Shown here one piece after another: positions 17,959-29,565 of a stretch of 64,000 bases of DNA. The stretch comes from Cryptosporangium arvum DSM 44712 (GTDB lineage Bacteria > Actinomycetota > Actinomycetes > Mycobacteriales > Cryptosporangiaceae). The stretch's first letter is position 1; each line of letters starts with the position of its first letter. The stretch lies in assembly GCF_000585375.1 (NCBI RefSeq), contig NZ_KK073874.1:4619251-4683250 (forward strand), written 5' to 3'. The position numbers and the translations under genes are program-made. The notes beneath the pieces were generated by a model. The model was given only the letters and a program-made list of their open reading frames with translations. It was not told where the DNA came from and did not search any database.

Positions 17959-18678
17959 GTGCTGCGCCCGGTGCGTGTCCCGCTGGCCTTCGCGACGCTC
18001 GTGGCGGCCGCGTCCACCGCGTACGTCCTGTTCGCGTCCGCGGCCGTGCAGCGGCAGCTGGACGCGGCCGGGGTGCCCGGCTGCCTGGACCCCAACGTCT
18101 GTTATCCGCACGGCGCCGCGCTGGGCGCGGTGCACGGGATCGAGATCACCGCCGCGCTCACGCCGGCGCTGATCGGCCTCGTGCTCGCGGCCGGCCTGCT
18201 CCGGCACGCGGCCCCGCTGGGCGTCGCGCTGCTCGCCGGAACCGTGCTGACCGGCGTGGTCGCCACCGTCCACCGGCTCGTCGGCGCGCGGTACACGGTG
18301 CTGGCCAGCGACACCTACGAGGGCTGGCAGCTCCTGCACCTGAACCATCCCGGGTTCATGATCATGGTGACGCTCGTGGTCACCGCCGTGGGAGCGGTGG
18401 CCGGGGCGCGCGCCACGCCGGTGCCGCGCGGGCGGTGGCCGCTCGCGCTGGCCGGCACGTACGCCGTGTTCGCGCTCGCCGGGGTGCTGGCGTGGCCGGT
18501 CGCCGGCCTGTTCGGTGCCGACGGCGGCCGGCCGGCCGGGCCGTTCGCCGCCGACATCGGTCTCTTCGACGGCCTCGGCTACGTCGCCGGCGCGCTGCTC
18601 GCCGGTCTCCTCGCCGTGCTCGTGTCCGCCGCCCGCCGGGAACGCGGTCCGGCCCCGGCGGCCGCCCCCGCGGCCTGA
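17959..18678 (+). CDS. Hypothetical integral membrane protein
   Basis: The protein has 239 residues from the GTG at 17959 (VLRPVRVPLAFATLVAAAST). The frame is open to 17812, but that part translates as Arg/Ala/Pro low complexity over a palindromic region. About five hydrophobic helices are visible: AFATLVAAASTAYVLFASA, LTPALIGLVLAAGLL, GVALLAGTVLTGVVATV, a helix around FMIMVTLVVTAVGAV, and two near the C-terminus. A loop after helix 1 holds two cysteines (GVPGCLDPNVCYPHG), perhaps a disulfide outside. I do not recognise the family. Confidence 0.7.
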   Translation: MLRPVRVPLAFATLVAAASTAYVLFASAAVQRQLDAAGVPGCLDPNVCYPHGAALGAVHGIEITAALTPALIGLVLAAGLLRHAAPLGVALLAGTVLTGVVATVHRLVGARYTVLASDTYEGWQLLHLNHPGFMIMVTLVVTAVGAVAGARATPVPRGRWPLALAGTYAVFALAGVLAWPVAGLFGADGGRPAGPFAADIGLFDGLGYVAGALLAGLLAVLVSAARRERGPAPAAAPAA

Positions 18679-20190: not shown

Positions 20191-21282
20191 ATGGGTTTGC
20201 CACGGATAGTCCGGGCATCATTACTGGTAGTAGCGGTGCTGCTCGCGGCCGTCGGGTGCGGCGATTCGAACTCGGAAAGCGACTCGACCAAGGACACGTC
20301 CGGTGGCCTGATCGGTATCTCGATGCCGACCGACGACCAGGCTCGCTGGGTCACCGACGGTGAGAACCTCACTTATCAATTCGAGCGTCTGGGCTATGCC
20401 GCCGACATGAAGGTGGCCGACGGTTCGGCGGCCCGGCAAATCCAGCAAATTCAGTCCATGATCGACGCCGGGGCCAAGGCATTGGTGATCAGCGCGGTCG
20501 ACGGCAAGTCGCTCACCGGCGTGCTGGCCAAGGCGCACGAGGCCAAGGTCAAGGTCGTCGCCTACGACCGGTTGATCGAAGGCACCCCCGACGTGGACTA
20601 CTTCGCCACGTTCGACGGCCAGCGGGTCGGCATCCTCCAGGCCACCTACCTCGTCGACGCGCTCAAGCTGCGCAGCGGCGGCGAGCCGGTCACGATCGAG
20701 CTCTTCGCCGGCTCGGCCGACGACAACAACGCCTCGGTCTTCTACAAGGGCGCGATGAGCGTGCTGAAGCCGTTCATCGACAGCGGCCGCCTCGACGTGC
20801 GCAGCGGCCAGACGGCGTTCAACCAGGTCACCACGAAGGCGTGGAGCGACGAGGTCGCACGTCAGCGGATGGCGAGCATCCTCAAGGAGCACTACGAGTC
20901 CGGTGACCTCGACGCGGTGCTCTCGCCGTACGACGGCATCTCGCGGGGCGTGCTGCAGGCGATCAAGGCGGCCGGCGCGAAGCGCCCGGTGATCACCGGG
21001 CAGGACGCGGAGATCGAGTCGGTCAAGCTGATCGCGTCCGGCCAGCAGGACCAGACGGTCTTCAAGGACACGCGCAAGCTGGCCGAGCTGGCCGCGACCC
21101 TCGTCGACACCTCGCTCAAGGGCGGATCGCCGCAGGTCACGGACACCACGCAGTTCGACAACGGCGTCAAGATCGTCCCGACCGCGCTGCTCCAGCCGGT
21201 CACGGTCGTGAAGGGCAACTACGAGAAGGTGCTGGTCGGCAGCAGCTACTACAGCGCCGCGCAGGTCGGTCTCGCGTCCTAG
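20191..21282 (+). CDS. Sugar-binding lipoprotein, ChvE/ribose-binding type, without permease
   Basis: The 363-residue protein starts at ATG 20191, with AAAGGGGA 6-13 bases upstream. It has a type II signal peptide with lipobox near LLAAVGCGDS, so it is anchored outside the membrane. The mature part is a periplasmic-binding type I fold like the ChvE/XylF multiple-sugar proteins: GLIGISMPTDDQARWVTDG, IQSMIDAGAKALVISAVDG, VKVVAYDRLIEGTPDVDYFA, ELFAGSADDNNASVFYKGAM and AVLSPYDGISRGVLQAI. No ABC ATPase or permease gene is near. Its stop overlaps the stop of the convergent diguanylate cyclase gene by 3 bp. A receptor role for that cyclase is an inference from context. Confidence 0.92.
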   Translation: MGLPRIVRASLLVVAVLLAAVGCGDSNSESDSTKDTSGGLIGISMPTDDQARWVTDGENLTYQFERLGYAADMKVADGSAARQIQQIQSMIDAGAKALVISAVDGKSLTGVLAKAHEAKVKVVAYDRLIEGTPDVDYFATFDGQRVGILQATYLVDALKLRSGGEPVTIELFAGSADDNNASVFYKGAMSVLKPFIDSGRLDVRSGQTAFNQVTTKAWSDEVARQRMASILKEHYESGDLDAVLSPYDGISRGVLQAIKAAGAKRPVITGQDAEIESVKLIASGQQDQTVFKDTRKLAELAATLVDTSLKGGSPQVTDTTQFDNGVKIVPTALLQPVTVVKGNYEKVLVGSSYYSAAQVGLAS

Positions 21283-22484
21283 GGGACGTCCGCGATCACG
21301 GACAGCCGGTCGGCCGAGTGCCGATCGGTGTCCGGGTCGTAGAACGCCACCCCGAGGTGGCCGCGTTTGGCCGTGTACATCGCGATGTCCGCGTGCTGCA
21401 GCAGCTTCTCGGCGTCGGTGCTGGGGCCGGGGTAGCGGGAGATCCCGATGCTGCCGGACACGGCCACCGTGACGTCGTCGACGGTGGCCGGGCCGCAGAG
21501 CGCCGCGTGCACCCGCTCGCCGAGTTCGATCGCGGTCGCCCGGTCGGCGACGCCGGGCAGCAGCACGGCGAACTCGTCGCCGCCGAGGCGCGCGACCAGG
21601 TCGTTGCGCCGGGCCGCCCCGGCCAGGCGGGCCGCCACCTCGATCAGCAGCTGGTCGCCGGCGTGGTGGCCGAGCGTGTCGTTGACCTCCTTGAACCGGT
21701 TGAGGTCCAGCAGCAGGAGCGCCACCCCCACGTCGGCCTCGCGGTCGCAGCGGGCCAGGCACGCGTCGATGTGCTCGTGGAGCAGGGAGCGGTTGGCGGT
21801 GCCGGTGAGGCTGTCGTGGGTCGCCCGGTGGCGGCTCTCCTCGGCCAGCCGCTCGGCCCCGCGCTGGTAGGCCAGGAGCACCAGCGTGCTGAACAGGACG
21901 AGCACCAGGTCGATCGCGGAGATCACGCCGACGGCCACGAGCATCCGCTGGTTCGTGCGTTGCGCGTCACGCAGCGCGGCGCCGATCTCCAGGCTGTTGC
22001 GTGCGACGTTCACCGAGGCCTGTTTGCGCAGCGCTGAGGCGCTCAGCGCGGCCTGCTCGGCGTCCAGCAGCACCTCGGCGCGGTCACCCCGCTGGTCGGC
22101 GTCGACGAGCGCGCGCAGCGTGTAGCTGTACCCGCCGTAGGTGTTCTGCAGCGACCGGGCCTCGGCGGCGTCGGCGTCGTCGCCGTTCGCGACCAGCCAC
22201 CGCAGGTTGGCCTCGGCCGACCCGATCGACGAGATCAGCGGCTGCTTGCCGACCTCGGTCTTGGACCGCACGAAGTCGATCAGCTGTTCGTACTCGATGC
22301 TGATCTTGAGATAGACGTCGCCCCACTGCCGGCTGTGTTCCTGGGTGTCGGCGATCCGCGTCATCGCGCCGGCCGAGCTGCGGGTGCTGAAGACCGCCAG
22401 GCCCGCCAGGACCGACAGGCCGATCGCCAGCGCGGTCACCGCACCGCGCGCGACGCCGCGTCTGCGCATCCACGCGATCCGCAT
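21279..22484 (-). CDS. Membrane diguanylate cyclase with extracytoplasmic sensor domain (GGDEF)
   Basis: The 401-residue protein starts at ATG 22484 (MRIAWMRRRG), with GGGGAG about 12 bases upstream. An ATG 39 bases earlier lacks a ribosome site. Helix 1 is at about 15-38, an outside helical domain spans about 40-175, and helix 2 is near 180-205 (VGVISAIDLVLVLFSTLVLL). The cytoplasmic GGDEF domain follows (HDSLTGTANRSLLHEHI, LLLLDLNRFKEVNDTLGHHA). The active site is ARLGGDEFAVLL, and RRND five residues before it is an intact inhibitory I-site. It should make c-di-GMP with product feedback. The sensor shape resembles a four-helix bundle. It is flanked on both sides by solute-binding protein genes. 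Confidence 0.94.
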   Translation of the reverse strand: MRIAWMRRRGVARGAVTALAIGLSVLAGLAVFSTRSSAGAMTRIADTQEHSRQWGDVYLKISIEYEQLIDFVRSKTEVGKQPLISSIGSAEANLRWLVANGDDADAAEARSLQNTYGGYSYTLRALVDADQRGDRAEVLLDAEQAALSASALRKQASVNVARNSLEIGAALRDAQRTNQRMLVAVGVISAIDLVLVLFSTLVLLAYQRGAERLAEESRHRATHDSLTGTANRSLLHEHIDACLARCDREADVGVALLLLDLNRFKEVNDTLGHHAGDQLLIEVAARLAGAARRNDLVARLGGDEFAVLLPGVADRATAIELGERVHAALCGPATVDDVTVAVSGSIGISRYPGPSTDAEKLLQHADIAMYTAKRGHLGVAFYDPDTDRHSADRLSVIADVP

Positions 22485-22570
22485 CGGCGGATGTCTCCCC
22501 TCGGCCGCTCTCGAGAATCCCATCGACCGATCCGGGGCCGGGCTGAGTCTTCGCCGGTCGAAGGACTGAA

Positions 22571-23647
22571 ATGCGGCGCTCCGCTGCCGATGGGCGGGGC
22601 GTGACCCGGGCCGTGCTCGCGCTGCTGCTGACGCTCGTCGCCCTCACCTCGTGCGCCCGGAAGCCCGGCGGGACGCCGGTGGCCGCGCTGGTCGTCGTCG
22701 GCACCGAGCTGACCACCGTGCAGCAGATGGTCCGCGGCTTCGCGATCGGGGTGAAGCAGATCGGCGGCGTCCGGCACCGGGAGTTCGGGCCGCGGATCGC
22801 CGACACCGCCCAGCAGCTGCGCGCGCTGCGGGCCAACCGGTCCCCGGCCCCGGACAGCTACACGGTGTTCACGTTCAACCCGGAGCTGCTCGCGGAGTCG
22901 CTGGCCGGGCTGAGCCGCGCCGGGATGCCGGTCGTGGCGCTGCAGTGTCCCCCGGCGCAGAGCTCCGAGGTACCGCTGCTGATCGGCAACGACAACCGGG
23001 CGGTGGGGGAGCTGCTGGCCCGCCAGCTCGCCCGCACGCTCCGCGGCACCGTGACCGGGACCCTGGTGCTCGGCAACCCCGCGCCCGGTGTGCAGACCTA
23101 CGACGAGCGCGCGATCGGGTTCCGCGAGACCTTCGCCCGGCTGTTCCCGCGGGTGCGGGTGATCGGGCCGTTCGACACCAAGCTCGAACCCGAGATCAAC
23201 CACGAGGCCTGGGACGTGCTGGTACGGGCGAACCCGCGGGCGATCGCGTTCGTCGGGGTCGGCGACGTCGACGCCGGGAACATCGTGCGGGCGCGCACGA
23301 CCTACCGGGGGCAGTGGGCCGCCGCGGGCATCGGGCTGGGCGCCGACGGGTTGCACGCCGCCGCGACCGGCGACCTGGTGCTGGTCTCCGGCGAGACGTT
23401 CCTGCAGGGCCTGATCGCCGGCCGGCTGCAGGCCGCGCACCTGCGGTACGGCTCGGATCTGCCGGAGGGGTGGGTGCAGGTGCCGGCGCTGGTGGTCACC
23501 CCGGCCAACGCGCCGGAGATCATCGCGCGCCAGCGGTCGTCGGAGTCGGCCGCGGCCTGGTTCGCCGAACACGACCGGGACCTGCTCGAGAACCCCGCCC
23601 GCCACCTCCGCCCGCTCTCCGAGGCGGCGGTCGGCGCCTCGGGTTGA
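22571..23647 (+). CDS. Periplasmic-binding-protein-like lipoprotein (type I fold)
   Basis: The 358-residue protein starts at ATG 22571 with AAGGA five bases upstream. Its signal peptide ends in lipobox LVALTSCARK. The mature protein follows the ribose/LacI-type fold, with MVRGFAIGVKQIGG, LAGLSRAGMPVVALQCPPA, PLLIGNDNRAVGELLARQLA, YDERAIGFRETFARLFP and FVGVGDVDAGN. It is divergent from the diguanylate cyclase gene, with starts 86 bp apart, so the two probably share a control region. No transporter genes are present. It may bind a sugar or signal molecule and act as a sensor subunit; the ligand is unknown. Confidence 0.88.
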   Translation: MRRSAADGRGVTRAVLALLLTLVALTSCARKPGGTPVAALVVVGTELTTVQQMVRGFAIGVKQIGGVRHREFGPRIADTAQQLRALRANRSPAPDSYTVFTFNPELLAESLAGLSRAGMPVVALQCPPAQSSEVPLLIGNDNRAVGELLARQLARTLRGTVTGTLVLGNPAPGVQTYDERAIGFRETFARLFPRVRVIGPFDTKLEPEINHEAWDVLVRANPRAIAFVGVGDVDAGNIVRARTTYRGQWAAAGIGLGADGLHAAATGDLVLVSGETFLQGLIAGRLQAAHLRYGSDLPEGWVQVPALVVTPANAPEIIARQRSSESAAAWFAEHDRDLLENPARHLRPLSEAAVGASG

Positions 23648-23688
23648 GCGCGCCCGGGCACGGGTCCGCGGGCCGGCGACACGCCGAC

Positions 23689-24963
23689 CTAGTTGACGCC
23701 GCTCTCGTCGGCCAGGCGGCGGGCCTTGCGCAGCGCGTCGCGCCAGGCGATCGCCGGTGCCTTGCCGCGGTACTCGACCTCGCGGAGCTCGCCGAGATAG
23801 ACGTCCTGGATCGCCGCGTCGGCCGGGGCCTCGTAGAGGCGGCGGGTGTGCCGGGCCGACGCGCTGAACACGTCGATCGTGCGCTGGCCGCCGAAGAACG
23901 GGTCGGCCACGGTCAACGCCGGCATCGCGTAGGTGGCCGGCGTCGACGGGAACAGCCGGGTGTCGGTGAACGCGCGGGCCTGGTTGCCGGGGTTCAGCAG
24001 CCACCGGATGATCCGGAAGGAGAGGTCCGGGTCGGACGCCGACGCCGGGATGCCGAGGAACGAACCGCCGATGTTCGTGTCGCCGGCCGGCCCGGTTGCC
24101 ACCCGCCACTTCCCTCTGGTCAGCGGCGCCGCGCCCTCGATGTCCTGGGCGTGCCAGGCGGCGCCGAGCGAGACCGCGATCGAGCCGTCGGCCGCCAGCG
24201 CGGCCCACTCCGGGGCGTCGTTGTCGACGTGCGCGCAGAGCCCGTCGGTGCTGGCGCCGATCGCGATGTCCCAGGCCGAACGGATGTGGTTGCCGTCGCC
24301 GACGAAACGGTTGAGCTCGTCGACGAACCGGGTGCCCGACTGCGACACCGCGATCGTGAACAGCGTCATCGTGTTCGCGATCCAGAACGTGTCGGGCAGA
24401 CGGCGGCGCAGCCGGGCGCCGAGCATCCGGAACTCCGTCCAGGTCCGCATCGCCGCGTCGACGTCGGCGGGCTCGGTGGGCAGGCCGGCCCGGCCGAACA
24501 CGTCGGCGCGGTAGAACGCGGCGGTGGGCCCGATGTCGATCGGGATGCCGACCAGGCGTCCGTCGTTGGCCCGGCCCTGCTGCCACTTCCAGGCCAGGTA
24601 GTCGTTCTCGATCTCGTCCGCGCCGAGCGTCAGCAGGTCGACGAACAGGTCGGCCCGGGGGAGGTACGAGGCGAGGTCCTCACCCTTGATGCCGGTGATC
24701 GCCGGCACCCCGTCGGCCTTCGACAGCGCGGTGTCGAGGCCGGTCCGGAACACGCCGGCGTGCTCGGTGTAGGTGAGCCTGGTGTCGGGCGCGAAGCGCT
24801 TGACCGCGTCCGCGATCACGGCCGACGAGAGGCCGCCGGGCCAGCACCAGAGCGCGGTGCCGGTCGGTTTCCCGGCCCCGTCGTCACCGGAGCCGCACCC
24901 GGTCAGCGCCGCGACGGGCGCCAGCAGCGAGGCGGAGAGCACCTGACGTCGGCTGAGCCCCAT
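23689..24963 (-). CDS. Extracellular solute-binding lipoprotein, family 1 (sugar type)
   Basis: The 424-residue protein begins MGLSRRQVLSASLLAPVAAL, with lipobox LTGC. The twin arginine (SRRQVL) suggests Tat export followed by lipidation. The body is the type II binding-protein fold of carbohydrate ABC systems: GIPIDIGPTAAFYRADVFGR, WTEFRMLGARL, FIGVP-like GGSFLGIPASASDPD, and WLLNPGNQARAFTDTRLFPS. No permease or ATPase lies next to it. Together with the two lipoproteins and the diguanylate cyclase just before it, it makes a cluster of three orphan binding proteins. A longer upstream frame to 25584 is a shadow of the Lrp gene. Confidence 0.9.
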   Translation of the reverse strand: MGLSRRQVLSASLLAPVAALTGCGSGDDGAGKPTGTALWCWPGGLSSAVIADAVKRFAPDTRLTYTEHAGVFRTGLDTALSKADGVPAITGIKGEDLASYLPRADLFVDLLTLGADEIENDYLAWKWQQGRANDGRLVGIPIDIGPTAAFYRADVFGRAGLPTEPADVDAAMRTWTEFRMLGARLRRRLPDTFWIANTMTLFTIAVSQSGTRFVDELNRFVGDGNHIRSAWDIAIGASTDGLCAHVDNDAPEWAALAADGSIAVSLGAAWHAQDIEGAAPLTRGKWRVATGPAGDTNIGGSFLGIPASASDPDLSFRIIRWLLNPGNQARAFTDTRLFPSTPATYAMPALTVADPFFGGQRTIDVFSASARHTRRLYEAPADAAIQDVYLGELREVEYRGKAPAIAWRDALRKARRLADESGVN

Positions 24964-25001: not shown

Positions 25002-25451
25002 TCACGGTCGTAGCGTGGGCTCGAGTTCTTCGAAGACCAGCCAGGTCCGGGTGCTCAGGACCCCGTCGATGCTCTGGATCTCGTCGAGCACCAGGCGGCG
25101 CAGCTCGGCGTTGTCGCGGCTGCGTACCAGCAGGATGACGTCGAACTCGCCGCCGACCAGGCCGATGTGCACGACACCGGGCAGTGCCTGCAGCCGTTCG
25201 CGCAGCGGCCGCCACTGGTGCTGGCTCAGGTTGAGCGTGATGTAGGCGGTGGTGCCGAGCCCGGCCGCGACCGGGTCGACGTCGGCGTGGAACCCGCGCA
25301 GTACGCCGGTCTCGCGGAGGCGCTCCACCCGGGCGTAGGCGTTCGCGCGGGAGACATGGACCTGTTCGGCGAGCGCGCGGATCGAGAGCCGGCCGTCCGC
25401 ACGCAGCGCGGCGAGGATGCGGCGGTCGGTGTCGTCGAGGTCGGTGGCCAT
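25002..25451 (-). CDS. Lrp/AsnC family regulator (BkdR-like)
   Basis: The 149-residue protein starts at ATG 25451 (MATDLDDTDRRILAALRADG). The N-terminal winged HTH is RLSIRALAEQVHVSRANAYA, and the C-terminal RAM domain runs from about 65 (YITLNLSQHQWRPLRERL, GLVGGEFDVILLVRSRDN). Lrp proteins read amino-acid levels and bind DNA as octamers. The gene is divergent from the E1alpha-E1beta-E2 operon, the usual place of BkdR, so control of branched-chain 2-oxoacid breakdown is the expected role. Confidence 0.93.
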   Translation of the reverse strand: MATDLDDTDRRILAALRADGRLSIRALAEQVHVSRANAYARVERLRETGVLRGFHADVDPVAAGLGTTAYITLNLSQHQWRPLRERLQALPGVVHIGLVGGEFDVILLVRSRDNAELRRLVLDEIQSIDGVLSTRTWLVFEELEPTLRP

Positions 25452-25582
25452 GTGTCTCGCGGGCCTTCCGGGAAGCGGGTGGGTGTTGGACGAACGGCTC
25501 GGGCAGGCCGCCTTTTCGGTGACATCTTCTCGCGATCCGGCCACCGGTTCCGTGCGAATGGCTTCCGGTGGAGCATCTATTC

Positions 25583-26668
25583 ATGACACGTGATCCCGAT
25601 CACTTGCTCCCGTCACGGTCCCCGGTCCAATTGATCGACGAGCACGGGGTCGCGGTCGGCGCCGACCGGCCCGACTTCCCGCCGCCCGCCGCGCTGCTCG
25701 ACGCCTACGCCGCGCTCGTCGTCGGCCGGCGCTTCAACGAACAGGCGTACGCGCTGGTCCGGCAGGGGCGCCTGGCCGTCTACCCGTCCTCGCACGGGCA
25801 GGAGGCCTGCCAGGTCGCGGCGGCCCAGGTGCTGGCGGCCGACGACTGGCTCTTCCCGACCTACCGCGACGCGGTGGCGATCGTGACCCGCGGCGTCGAT
25901 CCGGTGGCCACGCTGACGCTGTTCCGGGGCGACTGGCACACCGGGTACGACGCCACCGCGCACCGGGTCGCGCCGCAGACCACGCCGTTGGCCACCCAGC
26001 TGCTGCACGCGGTGGGCGTCGCGCACGCCGCGCGGCTGCGGGGGGAGCCGACCGTCGTCATGGCGCTGTGCGGGGACGGTGCCACGAGCGAGGGGGACTT
26101 CGCCGAGGCGCTGAACTTCGCCGCGGTGTTCGGCGCTCCGGTGGTGTTCCTGGTGCAGAACAACCAGTACGCGATCTCGGTGCCGCTGTCGAAGCAGAGC
26201 GCCGCGCCGTCGCTGGCGCACAAGGGCGTCGGCCACGGGCTCCCGGGTGAACGCGTCGACGGCAACGACGTGGCCGCGCTGCTGGCCGTGCTCACCGACG
26301 CGGTGGGGCGGGCCCGCGACGGCGGGGGGGCGCAGCTGATCGAGGCGCACACCTACCGCGTGGCCGCGCACACCAACGCCGACGATCCCGGGCGCTACCG
26401 GGTCGCGGCCGAGGTCGAGGAGTGGGTGGCGCGCGACCCGCTCGCCCGGGTGGCCACGTACCTGCGGGGCACCGGGGCACTGGACGACGCGCGGCAGGTC
26501 GCGTTCGACACCGAGGCCGAGCGGGTCGCGACCGCCCTGCGGGTCGAGACGACGCTGACGAAGGACCCCGGGCAGCTCTTCGCCCAGGTCTACGCGTCGC
26601 CGACCCCGCAGTTGCGTGAACAGGCCGCGCTGGTCCGCGACGAACTGAGCCGGGAGGTGGACGTCTGA
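25583..26668 (+). CDS. bkdA: 2-oxoacid dehydrogenase E1 alpha subunit (branched-chain type)
   Basis: The 361-residue thiamine-diphosphate subunit starts at ATG 25583, with GGTGGAG 10 bases upstream; a GTG at 25568 is less likely. Family blocks are YPSSHGQEACQVAAAQVLAA, WLFPTYRDAVAIVTRG, and the ThDP motif GDGATSEGDFAEALNFAAVF followed by QNNQYAIS. HTYRVAAHTNADDPGRYR is the phosphorylation-loop-like region. It decarboxylates the 2-oxoacid with E1 beta. Branched-chain specificity is inferred from the Lrp neighbour and the similarity pattern; pyruvate cannot be excluded. It is first of a three-gene operon with overlapping ends. Confidence 0.9.
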   Translation: MTRDPDHLLPSRSPVQLIDEHGVAVGADRPDFPPPAALLDAYAALVVGRRFNEQAYALVRQGRLAVYPSSHGQEACQVAAAQVLAADDWLFPTYRDAVAIVTRGVDPVATLTLFRGDWHTGYDATAHRVAPQTTPLATQLLHAVGVAHAARLRGEPTVVMALCGDGATSEGDFAEALNFAAVFGAPVVFLVQNNQYAISVPLSKQSAAPSLAHKGVGHGLPGERVDGNDVAALLAVLTDAVGRARDGGGAQLIEAHTYRVAAHTNADDPGRYRVAAEVEEWVARDPLARVATYLRGTGALDDARQVAFDTEAERVATALRVETTLTKDPGQLFAQVYASPTPQLREQAALVRDELSREVDV

Positions 26669-27648
26669 TGGAGAAGATCACGCTGGCCGGCGCGGTCAAC
26701 AGCGCGCTGCGTGACGCGATGCGCGCCGACGAGAGCGTCGTGGTGTTCGGTGAGGACGTCGGCCCGCTCGGCGGCGTGTTCCGGGTCACCGACGGGTTGA
26801 CCGCGGAGTTCGGGGCGGCGCGCTGCTTCGACACGCCGCTGGCCGAGTCGGGGATCGTCGGGATGGCGATCGGCATGGCGATGAACGGGTTCCGGCCCGT
26901 CGTCGAGATGCAGTTCGACGCGTTCGCGTTCCCGGCGTTCGAGCAGATCGTCAGCCACGTCGCGAAGATGCGGAACCGCACGCTCGGCGCGGTCACGCTG
27001 CCGCTCGTGATCCGGATCCCGTACGGCGGGGGCATCGGCGGGGTCGAGCACCACTGCGACTCGTCCGAGGCCTACTACGCGCACACGCCCGGGCTCCAGG
27101 TGTTCACGCCGTCGACGGCGGCCGACGCGTACGGCTTACTGCGCTCCGCGCTCACCGGCTCGGACCCGGTCGTCTTCATGGAACCCAAGAAGCTGTACTG
27201 GACGAAGGAGGAGCGCGATCCGTCCGGGACCGTGCCACCGCCGGGGCGCGCGGTGATCCGGCGGCCCGGCACCGACGCGACGCTCATCGCCTACGGGCCG
27301 GCCGTGCCGGTGGCGCTGGACGCCGCCGCGGTCGCGGCGTCCGAGGGGCGCTCGCTCGAGGTGGTCGACGTGCGGACGATCGTGCCGTTCGACGACGAGA
27401 CCGTGTGCGGGTCGGTCGCCCGGACCGGGCGGGCCGTGGTCGTCGCCGAGGCGCCCGGGTTCGCGAGCGTGGCGTCGGAGATCGCCGCGCGGGTGTCCGA
27501 GCGGTGCTTCTCGTCGTTGTCCGCGCCGGTGCGGCGGGTGACCGGGTTCGACATCCCGTTCCCGCCGCCGGCGTACGAGTCGCTCTACCTGCCCGGCGTG
27601 GACCGGATCCTCGACACGGTCGACGACCTGCAGTGGGAGCTGGTATGA
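26668..27648 (+). CDS. bkdB: 2-oxoacid dehydrogenase E1 beta subunit
   Basis: The 326-residue subunit starts where the E1 alpha stop ends (TGATG). It begins EKITLAGAVNSALRDAMRAD and shows VVVFGEDVGPLGGVFRVTDG, PLAESGIVGMAIGMAMNGFR, MQFDAFAFPAFEQIVSHVAK, IRIPYGGGIGGVEHHCDSSE and the transketolase C-terminal domain with LEVVDVRTIVPFDDETV. It supplies part of the ThDP site and the surface that docks to E2. Full length for the family. The stop overlaps the E2 start by 4 bp. Confidence 0.93.
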   Translation: MEKITLAGAVNSALRDAMRADESVVVFGEDVGPLGGVFRVTDGLTAEFGAARCFDTPLAESGIVGMAIGMAMNGFRPVVEMQFDAFAFPAFEQIVSHVAKMRNRTLGAVTLPLVIRIPYGGGIGGVEHHCDSSEAYYAHTPGLQVFTPSTAADAYGLLRSALTGSDPVVFMEPKKLYWTKEERDPSGTVPPPGRAVIRRPGTDATLIAYGPAVPVALDAAAVAASEGRSLEVVDVRTIVPFDDETVCGSVARTGRAVVVAEAPGFASVASEIAARVSERCFSSLSAPVRRVTGFDIPFPPPAYESLYLPGVDRILDTVDDLQWELV

Positions 27649-28973
27649 GCGCGCAGACGTTCGTGTTGCCGGACCTCGGCGAAGGGCTCACCGAGGCGGC
27701 GGTCGTGCGGTGGCTGGTCACCGAGGGCGACGCGGTGACGATCGACCAGCCGGTCGCGGAGGTCGAGACCGCGAAGGCGGTCGTGGAGGTGCCGACGCCG
27801 TTCGCCGGGACGGTGACCGCCCGGCACGTCGAGGTCGGCCACACCGCGACGGTCGGTGACCCGCTGCTGTCGGTGACCACCGACGAACCGGCCGGGTCCG
27901 GGAACGTGCTGGTCGGGTACGGCACGACGACCTCGACCGGCCCGCGCCGCCACCGCCGCCCGCGCGCCGCCGCCGCGCCGGTGGCGGCGGCCCCGCCTGC
28001 GGCGACAGCCGCGTCCCCGGTCGGGCTCCCGGTGACGTCCCCGGTCGGGCTGCCGGTCCCGGGTGCCGCGGAAACGGCGTCGTCGGCCGCGGCCGCGGGG
28101 GATCGGCCGCGGGTGGTGTCGCCGCTGGTGCGGCGGCTCGCGCAGGAGCGGGGCGTCGACGTGCGTACGATCCGCGGCAGCGGCCACGGCGGTCTGATCC
28201 TCCGCCGCGACGTCGAAGCCGCGTCTCCGGCCGCGTCCCGGGTCGAGGCGCCGGCCGCGGCGGCCGAAGCGCTCCCCGCCGTGGCTCCGGTCCCGGCGCG
28301 CAGCGGGGAGACGCGGGTGGAGCTCTCGCCGCTCGGAAAGGCCGCGGCGGGTGTGTTCGAGCGGAGCCGGCGCGAGATCCCCGACGTCACGATCTGGGCC
28401 GACGTGGACGCCACCCCGCTGGTCGAGCTCCGGGCCGGTGCCCCGGACGGCCCCGGCCTGCTCGCCTACCTCGCCCGGTTCACCGTGGCCGCGCTCCGCG
28501 AACACCCGGTCTTCAACGCCCGCTTCGACGCCGAGCGCCGCGAGACCGTCCACTCGCCGACCGTCCACCTCGGCCTCGCCGTCCAGGGTGCCAACGGCCT
28601 GGTCGTACCGGCCGTCCCGCACGCGGACACGCTCACCACGACCGGGCTGGACGCCGAGATCCGCCGCCTCACCGCCGCGGCGCGGAACGGCGAGGCGACC
28701 TCCTCGGCCGGCACGTTCACGCTGAACAACTACGGCGCGTTCCGGGTCGACGGCAGCACGCCGATCCTCACGCCCCCGAACGTCGGCATGCTCGGCGTCG
28801 GCCGGATCATCGACCGTCCCTGGGTGGTCGGCGGGGAGCTCGCGGTGCGCAAGGTGACCACGCTCAGCTTCGTCTTCGACCACCGGGTCTGCGACGGGCG
28901 GACCGCCGCCGACTTCCTCCGCGTGGTCGCCGACGCGATCGAGAACCCCGCGGCGGCGATCGCCCGCCTGTGA
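27645..28973 (+). CDS. bkdC: Dihydrolipoamide acyltransferase E2 of the branched-chain-type complex
   Basis: The 442-residue protein has a lipoyl domain at 1-80 (FVLPDLGEGLTEAAVVRWL) with the lipoyl Lys44 in VETAKAVVEV. An Ala/Pro linker leads to the peripheral subunit-binding domain near 145-180 (VVSPLVRRLAQERGVDVRTI, GSGHGGLILRRDV), then a second linker. The catalytic domain runs from about 225 to the end, with HxxxDG as DHRVCDGRTAADFL. It takes the acyl group from E1 and passes it to CoA. No E3 (dihydrolipoamide dehydrogenase) gene is nearby, so E3 must be shared from elsewhere. The linker is short in Lys and rich in VGLPV repeats. Confidence 0.93.
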   Translation: MSAQTFVLPDLGEGLTEAAVVRWLVTEGDAVTIDQPVAEVETAKAVVEVPTPFAGTVTARHVEVGHTATVGDPLLSVTTDEPAGSGNVLVGYGTTTSTGPRRHRRPRAAAAPVAAAPPAATAASPVGLPVTSPVGLPVPGAAETASSAAAAGDRPRVVSPLVRRLAQERGVDVRTIRGSGHGGLILRRDVEAASPAASRVEAPAAAAEALPAVAPVPARSGETRVELSPLGKAAAGVFERSRREIPDVTIWADVDATPLVELRAGAPDGPGLLAYLARFTVAALREHPVFNARFDAERRETVHSPTVHLGLAVQGANGLVVPAVPHADTLTTTGLDAEIRRLTAAARNGEATSSAGTFTLNNYGAFRVDGSTPILTPPNVGMLGVGRIIDRPWVVGGELAVRKVTTLSFVFDHRVCDGRTAADFLRVVADAIENPAAAIARL

Positions 28974-29103: not shown

Positions 29104-29565
29104 TCAGTGCTGGTTCTTGATGACGAAGTACGAGCCGCGGATCGTGCCGGCCAGCTTCGACTTCTGGCGGGCGAACTTGAACGACGCGAGCTCCTCGGGA
29201 ACGTCCATCCCGTCCGCGAGCTTGAACCCGACCGCCCGCTTCCCGCCGTCGTCGAGCCCGTACATGACGTTGATCGAGAGGCCGCTCTCGTAGAACACGT
29301 AGGCCATCCGGATGTTCTCGACCTGGAACTCGGTCGCTTCGAGCGGGCGCGACGCGATCACGAGACCACGCTCGTCGGCGAGGATGCCGTGCACCCAGTC
29401 GACGACCGCCCTGGCCTCGTCCGCCGGTTCGACCGCGAAGACGTGGTCGTACTTGTTCTTGAAGTACCGGGCCTCGTTGGCGCGCAGGCCGGCGAGCGCG
29501 TCGGCGACCGGCGACGACTCGAGGCCGGCCGTCGACACGGTGGTGAAGTCCACGGCGTGGGACAT
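29104..29565 (-). CDS. Conserved-looking protein of unknown function, 153 residues
   Basis: A strong ribosome site (GGAGGA) precedes the ATG at 29565. The product is MSHAVDFTTVSTAGLESSPV to the end TIRGSYFVIKNQH. It has no signal peptide or membrane helix. The predicted pattern is an N-terminal helix (ADALAGLRANEARYFKNKYD) and alternating strands (HVFAVEP, LVIASRPLEATEFQVENIRM, AYVFYESGLSINVMYGLDDG). A basic C-terminal strand follows. Low alanine/arginine content and lysine use (about 10 Lys) differ from neighbours. I do not recognise the family. It sits between the bkd operon (convergent) and a TetR gene on its own strand. Confidence 0.75.
   Translation of the reverse strand: MSHAVDFTTVSTAGLESSPVADALAGLRANEARYFKNKYDHVFAVEPADEARAVVDWVHGILADERGLVIASRPLEATEFQVENIRMAYVFYESGLSINVMYGLDDGGKRAVGFKLADGMDVPEELASFKFARQKSKLAGTIRGSYFVIKNQH

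Follow-up and report, generated by a model that had tools for sequence, protein, structure and literature searches.

A membrane diguanylate cyclase and its neighbouring solute-binding lipoproteins as a probable sensory unit in Cryptosporangium arvum and its relatives

Why should genes for three solute-binding protein (SBP) lipoproteins surround the gene for a membrane diguanylate cyclase when no importer lies beside them? The question is raised by a stretch of 64,000 nucleotides (the window) from Cryptosporangium arvum DSM 44712, whose genome (G000) is a single 9.2 Mb contig and in which SBP1, the cyclase, SBP2 and SBP3 follow one another (Table 1). We consider it likely, with a probability of roughly 0.7, that the cyclase, SBP2 and SBP3 constitute a sensory unit in which the loaded lipoproteins would dock on the sensor of the cyclase and set its output of cyclic di-GMP (c-di-GMP). 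Since relatives keep the pairing of binding protein and cyclase, a sensing role is most likely, with the cell sampling its surroundings through transporter-less binding proteins and a cyclase and adjusting its behaviour.

The four genes had first been described from the letters of the DNA alone (the sequence-only reading), and coordinates, strands and Pfam families all agree with that description: SBP1 and SBP2 match Peripla_BP_4 (1.2e-55 and 7.4e-16, respectively), SBP3 matches SBP_bac_8 (1.6e-17) and also SBP_bac_1, and the cyclase matches GGDEF (4.8e-44). Lipobox-like ends were seen by eye in SBP1 (AVGC), SBP2 (LTSC) and SBP3 (LTGC, preceded by an RR pair). Genes were called with a home-made codon-usage script that gives approximate starts. 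The claimed spacing was borne out, with 86 bases between the starts of the cyclase (22484) and SBP2 (22571) and a two-base overlap between the stops of SBP1 (21280-21282) and the cyclase (21279-21281). A reading of the four genes as a single operon was rejected, because their strands alternate. The claimed absence of an ATP-binding cassette (ABC) permease or ATPase also held, none being found by Pfam among the genes called from 15 to 30 kb, two of which (17959-18678 and 29104-29565) had no Pfam match.

To survey the sensor domain of the cyclase, a five-row sensor alignment was run against 250 genomes of a family that we take to be Micromonosporaceae, and all neighbourhoods found were fetched. 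A three-row alignment, run earlier against 394 genomes of the class with some seven candidates scored in each and hence of little power, had found the domain in the window's genome only. The domain was located at 43 places in 28 genomes, possibly an undercount since no more than 12 candidates were scored per genome; L094 and L095, from a scan described below, correspond to L180 and L181, and each locus entered the counts a single time. An SBP gene was the immediate neighbour at 40 of the 43 places, and three families were represented: Peripla_BP_4, as in SBP2, at 24 (20 divergent from the cyclase and four on its strand), SBP_bac_1/8, as in SBP3, at eight (L192, L194-L197, L210, L211 and L220), and DctP at eight (L214-L219, L221 and L222). 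Pfam results for 85 neighbour genes concur, the 25th Peripla_BP_4 member being a LacI regulator at L212. Many of these genes lie close to the cyclase on the same strand (43-143 bases), namely at four of the 24 SBP2-type places, at the five SBP3-only loci (L192 and L194-L197, with the SBP gene 54-127 bases before the cyclase) and at all eight DctP loci, where the TRAP-type (tripartite ATP-independent periplasmic) gene stands directly behind the cyclase at 43-140 bases. At L214, L215 and L219 a further Peripla_BP_4 gene adjoins the DctP gene.

As a control we took the 40 GGDEF genes with the best E-values (L253-L292) from genomes G669 and G539, leaving out the sensor places and one GGDEF gene that adjoins such a place; six of the 40 had a single called neighbour only. 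At least two had an SBP neighbour, a lower bound because 25 of the 99 neighbour families were listed and an SBP of another family may be hidden: L258, the only one given by a BLAST check, belongs to a pair of SBP1-type protein and methyl-accepting chemotaxis protein (MCP), and L263, which came from the Pfam table together with a scan for lipoboxes, lies in an ABC operon. The difference between sensor places and controls (40/43 versus at least 2/40) gave a Fisher p of 1.2e-17, which is overstated as the rows are related.

Table 1. Features of the locus in window coordinates
Feature	Position	Strand	Basis
SBP1, ChvE-like sugar-binding lipoprotein, outside the conserved module	20191..21282	+	Pfam, tree, structure-database match
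Membrane diguanylate cyclase, 401 aa, GGDEF without EAL	21279..22484	-	Pfam, motifs, model, hydropathy
Flagellar-sigma-type promoter motif CTCA-N16-GTCGAT, one mismatch, 37 bases before the cyclase start	22522..22547	-	Motif scan; weak when taken alone
SBP2, binding lipoprotein of type I (Peripla_BP_4) and partner of the cyclase, divergent from it	22571..23647	+	Pfam, tree, neighbourhoods, model
SBP3, Tat-type (twin-arginine translocation) SBP_bac_1/8 lipoprotein, second conserved partner in this cyclase clade	23689..24963	-	Pfam, neighbourhoods, cyclase tree

Within the window's own family, five genomes were compared (G000 to G004). The congener G001 (L021) keeps order and strands as in the window, with identities of 65% for SBP3, 60% for SBP2 and 71% for the cyclase, the last being a 649-aa GGDEF-EAL protein; a second divergent SBP2-cyclase pair in the same genome (L026) is 37% and 40% identical and has no EAL. 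In Micromonosporaceae the cyclase, SBP2 and SBP3 are arranged and oriented exactly as in the window at nine loci (L180, L182-L184 and L186-L190), and at L191 SBP3 is inverted and one gene farther from the module. Judged by this conservation, the module is made up of the cyclase, SBP2 and SBP3. The sequence-only reading had proposed that a whole set of lipoproteins feeds the membrane cyclase and had named conserved adjacency in relatives as the check; the pairing recurs for SBP2 and SBP3, in G001 and at the nine loci, and fails both for SBP1, found next to a cyclase of this type in the window only, and in the other three family genomes. At L021 neither SBP1 nor the phosphofructokinase, GH36 and Lrp genes lie alongside the module. 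A sugar theme drawn from the first two of those genes was rejected, since these neighbours are not conserved in relatives' loci, with no matches in L021-L027 or L180-L219.

How SBP1 came to lie in the window is a question of its own. That it is ChvE-like was confirmed, its closest solved proteins being 4wwh (E 7.9e-113) and ChvE itself (3urm, E 3.3e-99). In a tree of 31 rows (with the duplicates L045=L068, L046=L069, L047=L073 and L050=L074), it falls in a 100/99 group of nine rows (seven loci) that are free of adjacent transporter genes, and the other 22 rows all have an ATPase neighbour. By Pfam an MCP gene adjoins the SBP1-type gene at L069, L070, L071 (in the window's genome) as well as L258 (G669), and none was found at L068, in the window or at L072, which is cut by a contig end. 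As the clade lacks transporters and is often paired with MCP genes, SBP1 probably descends from chemotaxis-type sensors; most likely it is a chemotaxis-type sugar sensor moved here by rearrangement. The likeness is to the E. coli pairs of RbsB or MglB with the chemoreceptor Trg, in that SBP1's clade adjoins MCP genes at four loci; the difference is that the output here is c-di-GMP and the SBP1 of the window has no MCP neighbour. Could SBP1 nonetheless be a true third input on the same sensor, as when several binding proteins serve one chemoreceptor? Its tight packing with the two-base stop overlap, the chemoreceptor pairing of its relatives and a long branch (0.65) suggesting new constraints all speak for this, yet the adjacency was found in this genome and in no relative examined, the convergent orientation allows no shared promoter, and its nearest relatives (L068 and L072, in G002 and G003) occur without this cyclase type. 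We regard a third input as improbable, and SBP1 was rejected as a core part of the module. Conserved pairs of SBP1-type lipoprotein and chemoreceptor (L258, 833-5864 of G669; L069, L070 and L071) occur in the window's genus and in one Micromonosporaceae genome and are candidates for sugar chemotaxis of motile spores.

Importer parts remain the obvious comparison for SBP2 and SBP3. A 12-row SBP2 alignment scanned against 84,980 species genomes returned 53 loci (an earlier scan with a three-row alignment had returned 237 stretches, none confirmed), and at 49 of the 53 the gene lay between a permease and an ATPase gene; import is therefore the ordinary role of the SBP2 family. The remaining loci were L125, with a permease only, L097, from the metagenome-assembled genome G004, with no direct partner, and L094 (Actinoplanes philippinensis) and L095 (Paractinoplanes tereljensis), where SBP2 and a GGDEF-EAL gene of the cyclase's kind diverge; in L094 SBP3 is placed as in the window, with an MCP gene beyond it. 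The SBP2 relatives in G002 and G003 are also flanked by a permease-like gene and an ATPase gene, and that in G004 has neither transporter genes nor a cyclase directly adjoining, a different GGDEF gene lying 4.7 kb off. In contrast to an SBP-dependent ABC importer, the window has no such cognate pair from 15 to 30 kb. In a tree of 46 SBP2 rows, 27 cyclase-linked rows fell on one side of a branch (98/90), with 17 ABC-linked rows (seven from the genome search and 10 of the 50 permease-linked scan loci), one kinase-linked row (L042) and one orphan (L023) on the other; two long branches, L042 and L027, meet in this tree. On the evidence of the tree, SBP2 derives from an ABC importer and became a receptor partner on one occasion.

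These trees also bear on the proposal that the lipoproteins are orphan parts of importers serving permeases elsewhere, with the cyclase regulated independently and the pairing reflecting shared expression only. The window's genome does hold 51 BPD_transp_2 matches, the nearest at genome position 4692261 (window coordinate 73011) in a genome-wide search that did not cover BPD_transp_1, the family usual for SBP3-type importers, and relatives of all three lipoproteins occur in transporter operons. Against this, the cyclase-linked SBP2 proteins stand apart from the transporter-linked ones, sensor cyclases have an SBP neighbour from any of three families far more often than controls do, and the type of partner tracks cyclase phylogeny. 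In the cyclase tree (46 rows), the 12 rows with SBP2 and SBP3 and the five SBP3-only rows form one 100/100 group that includes the window, the eight DctP-linked rows form another (100/100), and the remaining three SBP_bac_1/8 rows are scattered. Partner type changes eight times on the tree as compared to a mean of 26.7 after shuffling, and none of 200 shuffles was as low. We therefore hold orphan importer parts to be quite unlikely. In the same SBP2 tree, the kinase-linked row corresponds to a kinase version of the pairing, in which an SBP2-type gene stands directly before a NIT-domain sensor histidine kinase (L042, 7749-11080, of G112).

The cyclase itself has the features of a receptor. Its catalytic GGDEF motif is intact, with an RxxD inhibitory site before it, and, as the sequence-only reading had it, two hydrophobic segments (residues 11-34 and 178-208, by hydropathy only) flank an extracytoplasmic helical sensor domain of about residues 36-180, a topology that is predicted; across the sensor-cyclase family two such segments were seen in 38 of 46 members and one in eight, some of these with clipped gene starts. 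A model built from a three-row alignment has a mean predicted local distance difference test (pLDDT) score of 79.6, rising to 90-98 over residues 41-170, with helices at 2-73, 77-86, 91-100, 103-131 and 135-224 before the GGDEF domain. The model shows the sensor as a predicted helical bundle, its first and its last helix continuing into the hydrophobic segments; when the whole model was compared with the PDB, the match lists were filled by the GGDEF domain. The SBP2 model (pLDDT 89.4, predicted template modelling score 0.86) has a type I binding-protein fold, with sugar-binding proteins as its best matches (Z about 31), and sensory XylFII is among them (5xss, Z 31.3; XylFII-LytSN complex 5xsj, Z 30.9), on a par with numerous sugar SBPs. 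In the XylFII-LytS system of Clostridium, a type I sugar-binding protein is likewise complexed with a membrane sensor, and the output is a histidine kinase.

An EAL region is present in 38 of the 46 family members, with EALxRW matched in 34, and no EAL domain was found in the window's cyclase, which has GGDEF only. Since the other 16 members of its 17-row clade all have the region, EAL was most likely lost in the window's lineage, and without it the cyclase is predicted to turn the same input into an output of one direction only. In the SBP3-only cyclases L194-L197 the D of the RxxD site is lost and the EALxRW pattern has no match, and their output may therefore differ.

From gene order, conservation, clades, motifs and co-occurrence with flagellin in relatives, we infer the following course of events, in which docking, ligands, direction of output and a role in the spore are all stated conditionally. 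SBP2 or SBP3, on the outer face of the membrane, would bind a small molecule and close; the closed lipoprotein would dock on the outside helical bundle of the cyclase, the transmembrane helices would shift, and the changed geometry of the GGDEF dimer would raise or lower c-di-GMP synthesis. In the relatives with EAL, which are the majority, the same input would shift the net result of c-di-GMP synthesis and breakdown, on the pattern of the NspS-MbaA system, and the window's cyclase would be a synthesis-only version. SBP3 occurs on one cyclase branch, and on it most receptors would take two inputs. Expression of the unit probably goes with that of the flagellar regulon, and the unit probably helps the motile spore to choose between swimming, settling and germinating.

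The link to motility is drawn from two observations. Flagellin was found in all 28 sensor genomes and in 59 of the 222 others (87 of the 250 Micromonosporaceae genomes; p 5e-15, likewise overstated), and by genus all five sensor genera lay within the 11 of 44 that have it (p 4e-4). A motif of the flagellar-sigma type, CTCA-N15..17-GCCGA(A/T) with at most one mismatch, the CTCA half of which is taken as characteristic, precedes 33 of the 43 sensor cyclases (nine exact) as compared to 40 of 563 other genes (10 exact), and it precedes 10 of the 24 SBP2 genes (three exact); its spacer is 16 in 32 of the 33 sensor-cyclase cases. The window's copy has one mismatch and is weak by itself, given its frequency before other genes, and is backed by relatives, the motif of the congener (L021) being exact. 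The flagellar -10 element GCCGATAA quoted in PMC8325347, where the -35 element is TAAA, matches the GCCGA half.

Several points weigh against a sensory unit of this kind. Three sensor cyclases (L209, L212 and L213) have no SBP neighbour, and in the window's family the sensor domain was found in two of five genomes, that is, not in G002, G003 or G004. The controls come from two genomes and the sensor places from 28, and because rows within genera are related, the p values are overstated. The flagellin counts cover the 250 Micromonosporaceae genomes and not the window's own. The promoter motif also precedes 25 of 46 control GGDEF genes (11 exact), about half, and thus is not specific to SBP-linked cyclases; c-di-GMP enzymes of the two control genomes may, by this token, belong to the flagellar regulon. 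Finally, in a mirror-tree comparison sensor distances correlated with those of SBP2 at 0.71 and GGDEF distances at 0.85, with no extra signal for the sensor (partial correlation given GGDEF 0.08, permutation p 0.13), and the mirror-tree therefore neither favours nor excludes direct contact. The last result and the three unaccompanied cyclases would also suit a helical bundle that senses small molecules directly, as bundles such as that of Tar can, the SBP genes being co-located through a common nutrient response, yet the three partner families are largely confined to their own cyclase branches and many SBP and cyclase genes share a strand within 143 bases, and we give this explanation the least credence of all.

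For the sensory unit that we favour, a broader version can be put forward tentatively, and we would sooner bet against it than for it: the sensor, a lineage-specific helical bundle, may within this one receptor family be a universal socket for three SBP families, sometimes two at once in competing or additive fashion, with the set run by the flagellar sigma factor, such that swimming spores would read many nutrients via c-di-GMP while choosing whether to swim, settle or germinate. Among Actinobacteria, GGDEF proteins are most numerous in zoospore formers (PMC10746217), and a universal socket, if true, would explain part of this excess. Some 40 pairs of receptor and input in the sensor-cyclase family lend themselves to individual testing; together they offer a natural experiment in how different binding proteins might fit a single sensor fold, and would be a clear example of importer components made over into receptor components.

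Two binding proteins of other systems help to judge what is new here: ArtI of Salmonella, which belongs to an importer, and NspS of Vibrio cholerae, which we take to be a polyamine-binding protein of another SBP type. Control of receptors by SBPs, c-di-GMP enzymes included, is established (PMC9602780), and NspS-MbaA, with homologues in Sinorhizobium meliloti, is the model case, a binding protein that controls a membrane GGDEF-EAL enzyme (PMC8967002 and PMC9993111); the remark in the sequence-only reading that no such system was known as described is, in light of PMC8967002, too strong. Like NspS-MbaA, the window has a receptor gene that an SBP gene adjoins, with no permease or ATPase, and the receptor has two predicted membrane helices, an outside domain and an intact GGDEF; it differs in that the partners are Peripla_BP_4, SBP_bac_1/8 or DctP proteins (NspS being set apart by its description, not by sequence), often two per receptor, in Gram-positives, and in that the window's copy lacks EAL. 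By analogy, the unit would work like NspS-MbaA, the novelty lying in its actinobacterial setting and in different binding proteins, with two of them often paired with a single receptor. GlnH-GlnX-PknG of Corynebacterium and Mycobacterium likewise combines an actinobacterial SBP lipoprotein with an all-helical transmembrane receptor (PMC9769921), but GlnX has four transmembrane segments and a Ser/Thr kinase pathway, as opposed to two hydrophobic segments and c-di-GMP for the window's cyclase. In the ArtI-STM1987 system a periplasmic binding protein is needed for the effect of arginine via a c-di-GMP enzyme, one with a dCACHE sensor and another SBP; the same source, a review, states that of 27 families of the periplasmic-binding clan only SBP_bac_3 domains, within the enzymes themselves, have been studied in c-di-GMP networks (PMC8846402). 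A literature search on GGDEF proteins and SBPs in Actinoplanes and Micromonosporaceae, and on DctP and cyclases, made at the level of records and not of all full texts, returned no description of the sensor-cyclase family, of the use of three SBP families or of the two-SBP form.

Two further loci deserve mention. Outside the module, the window carries at 25002-28973 an ordinary arrangement in which an Lrp/AsnC regulator gene and an operon for a 2-oxoacid dehydrogenase (E1 alpha, E1 beta and E2, by Pfam) are transcribed divergently. In G001, L026 (92-6339) carries an SBP_bac_1 protein gene with a permease-like neighbour, divergent from the gene for a 1212-aa NIT-domain histidine kinase, which is followed by a roadblock-domain gene.

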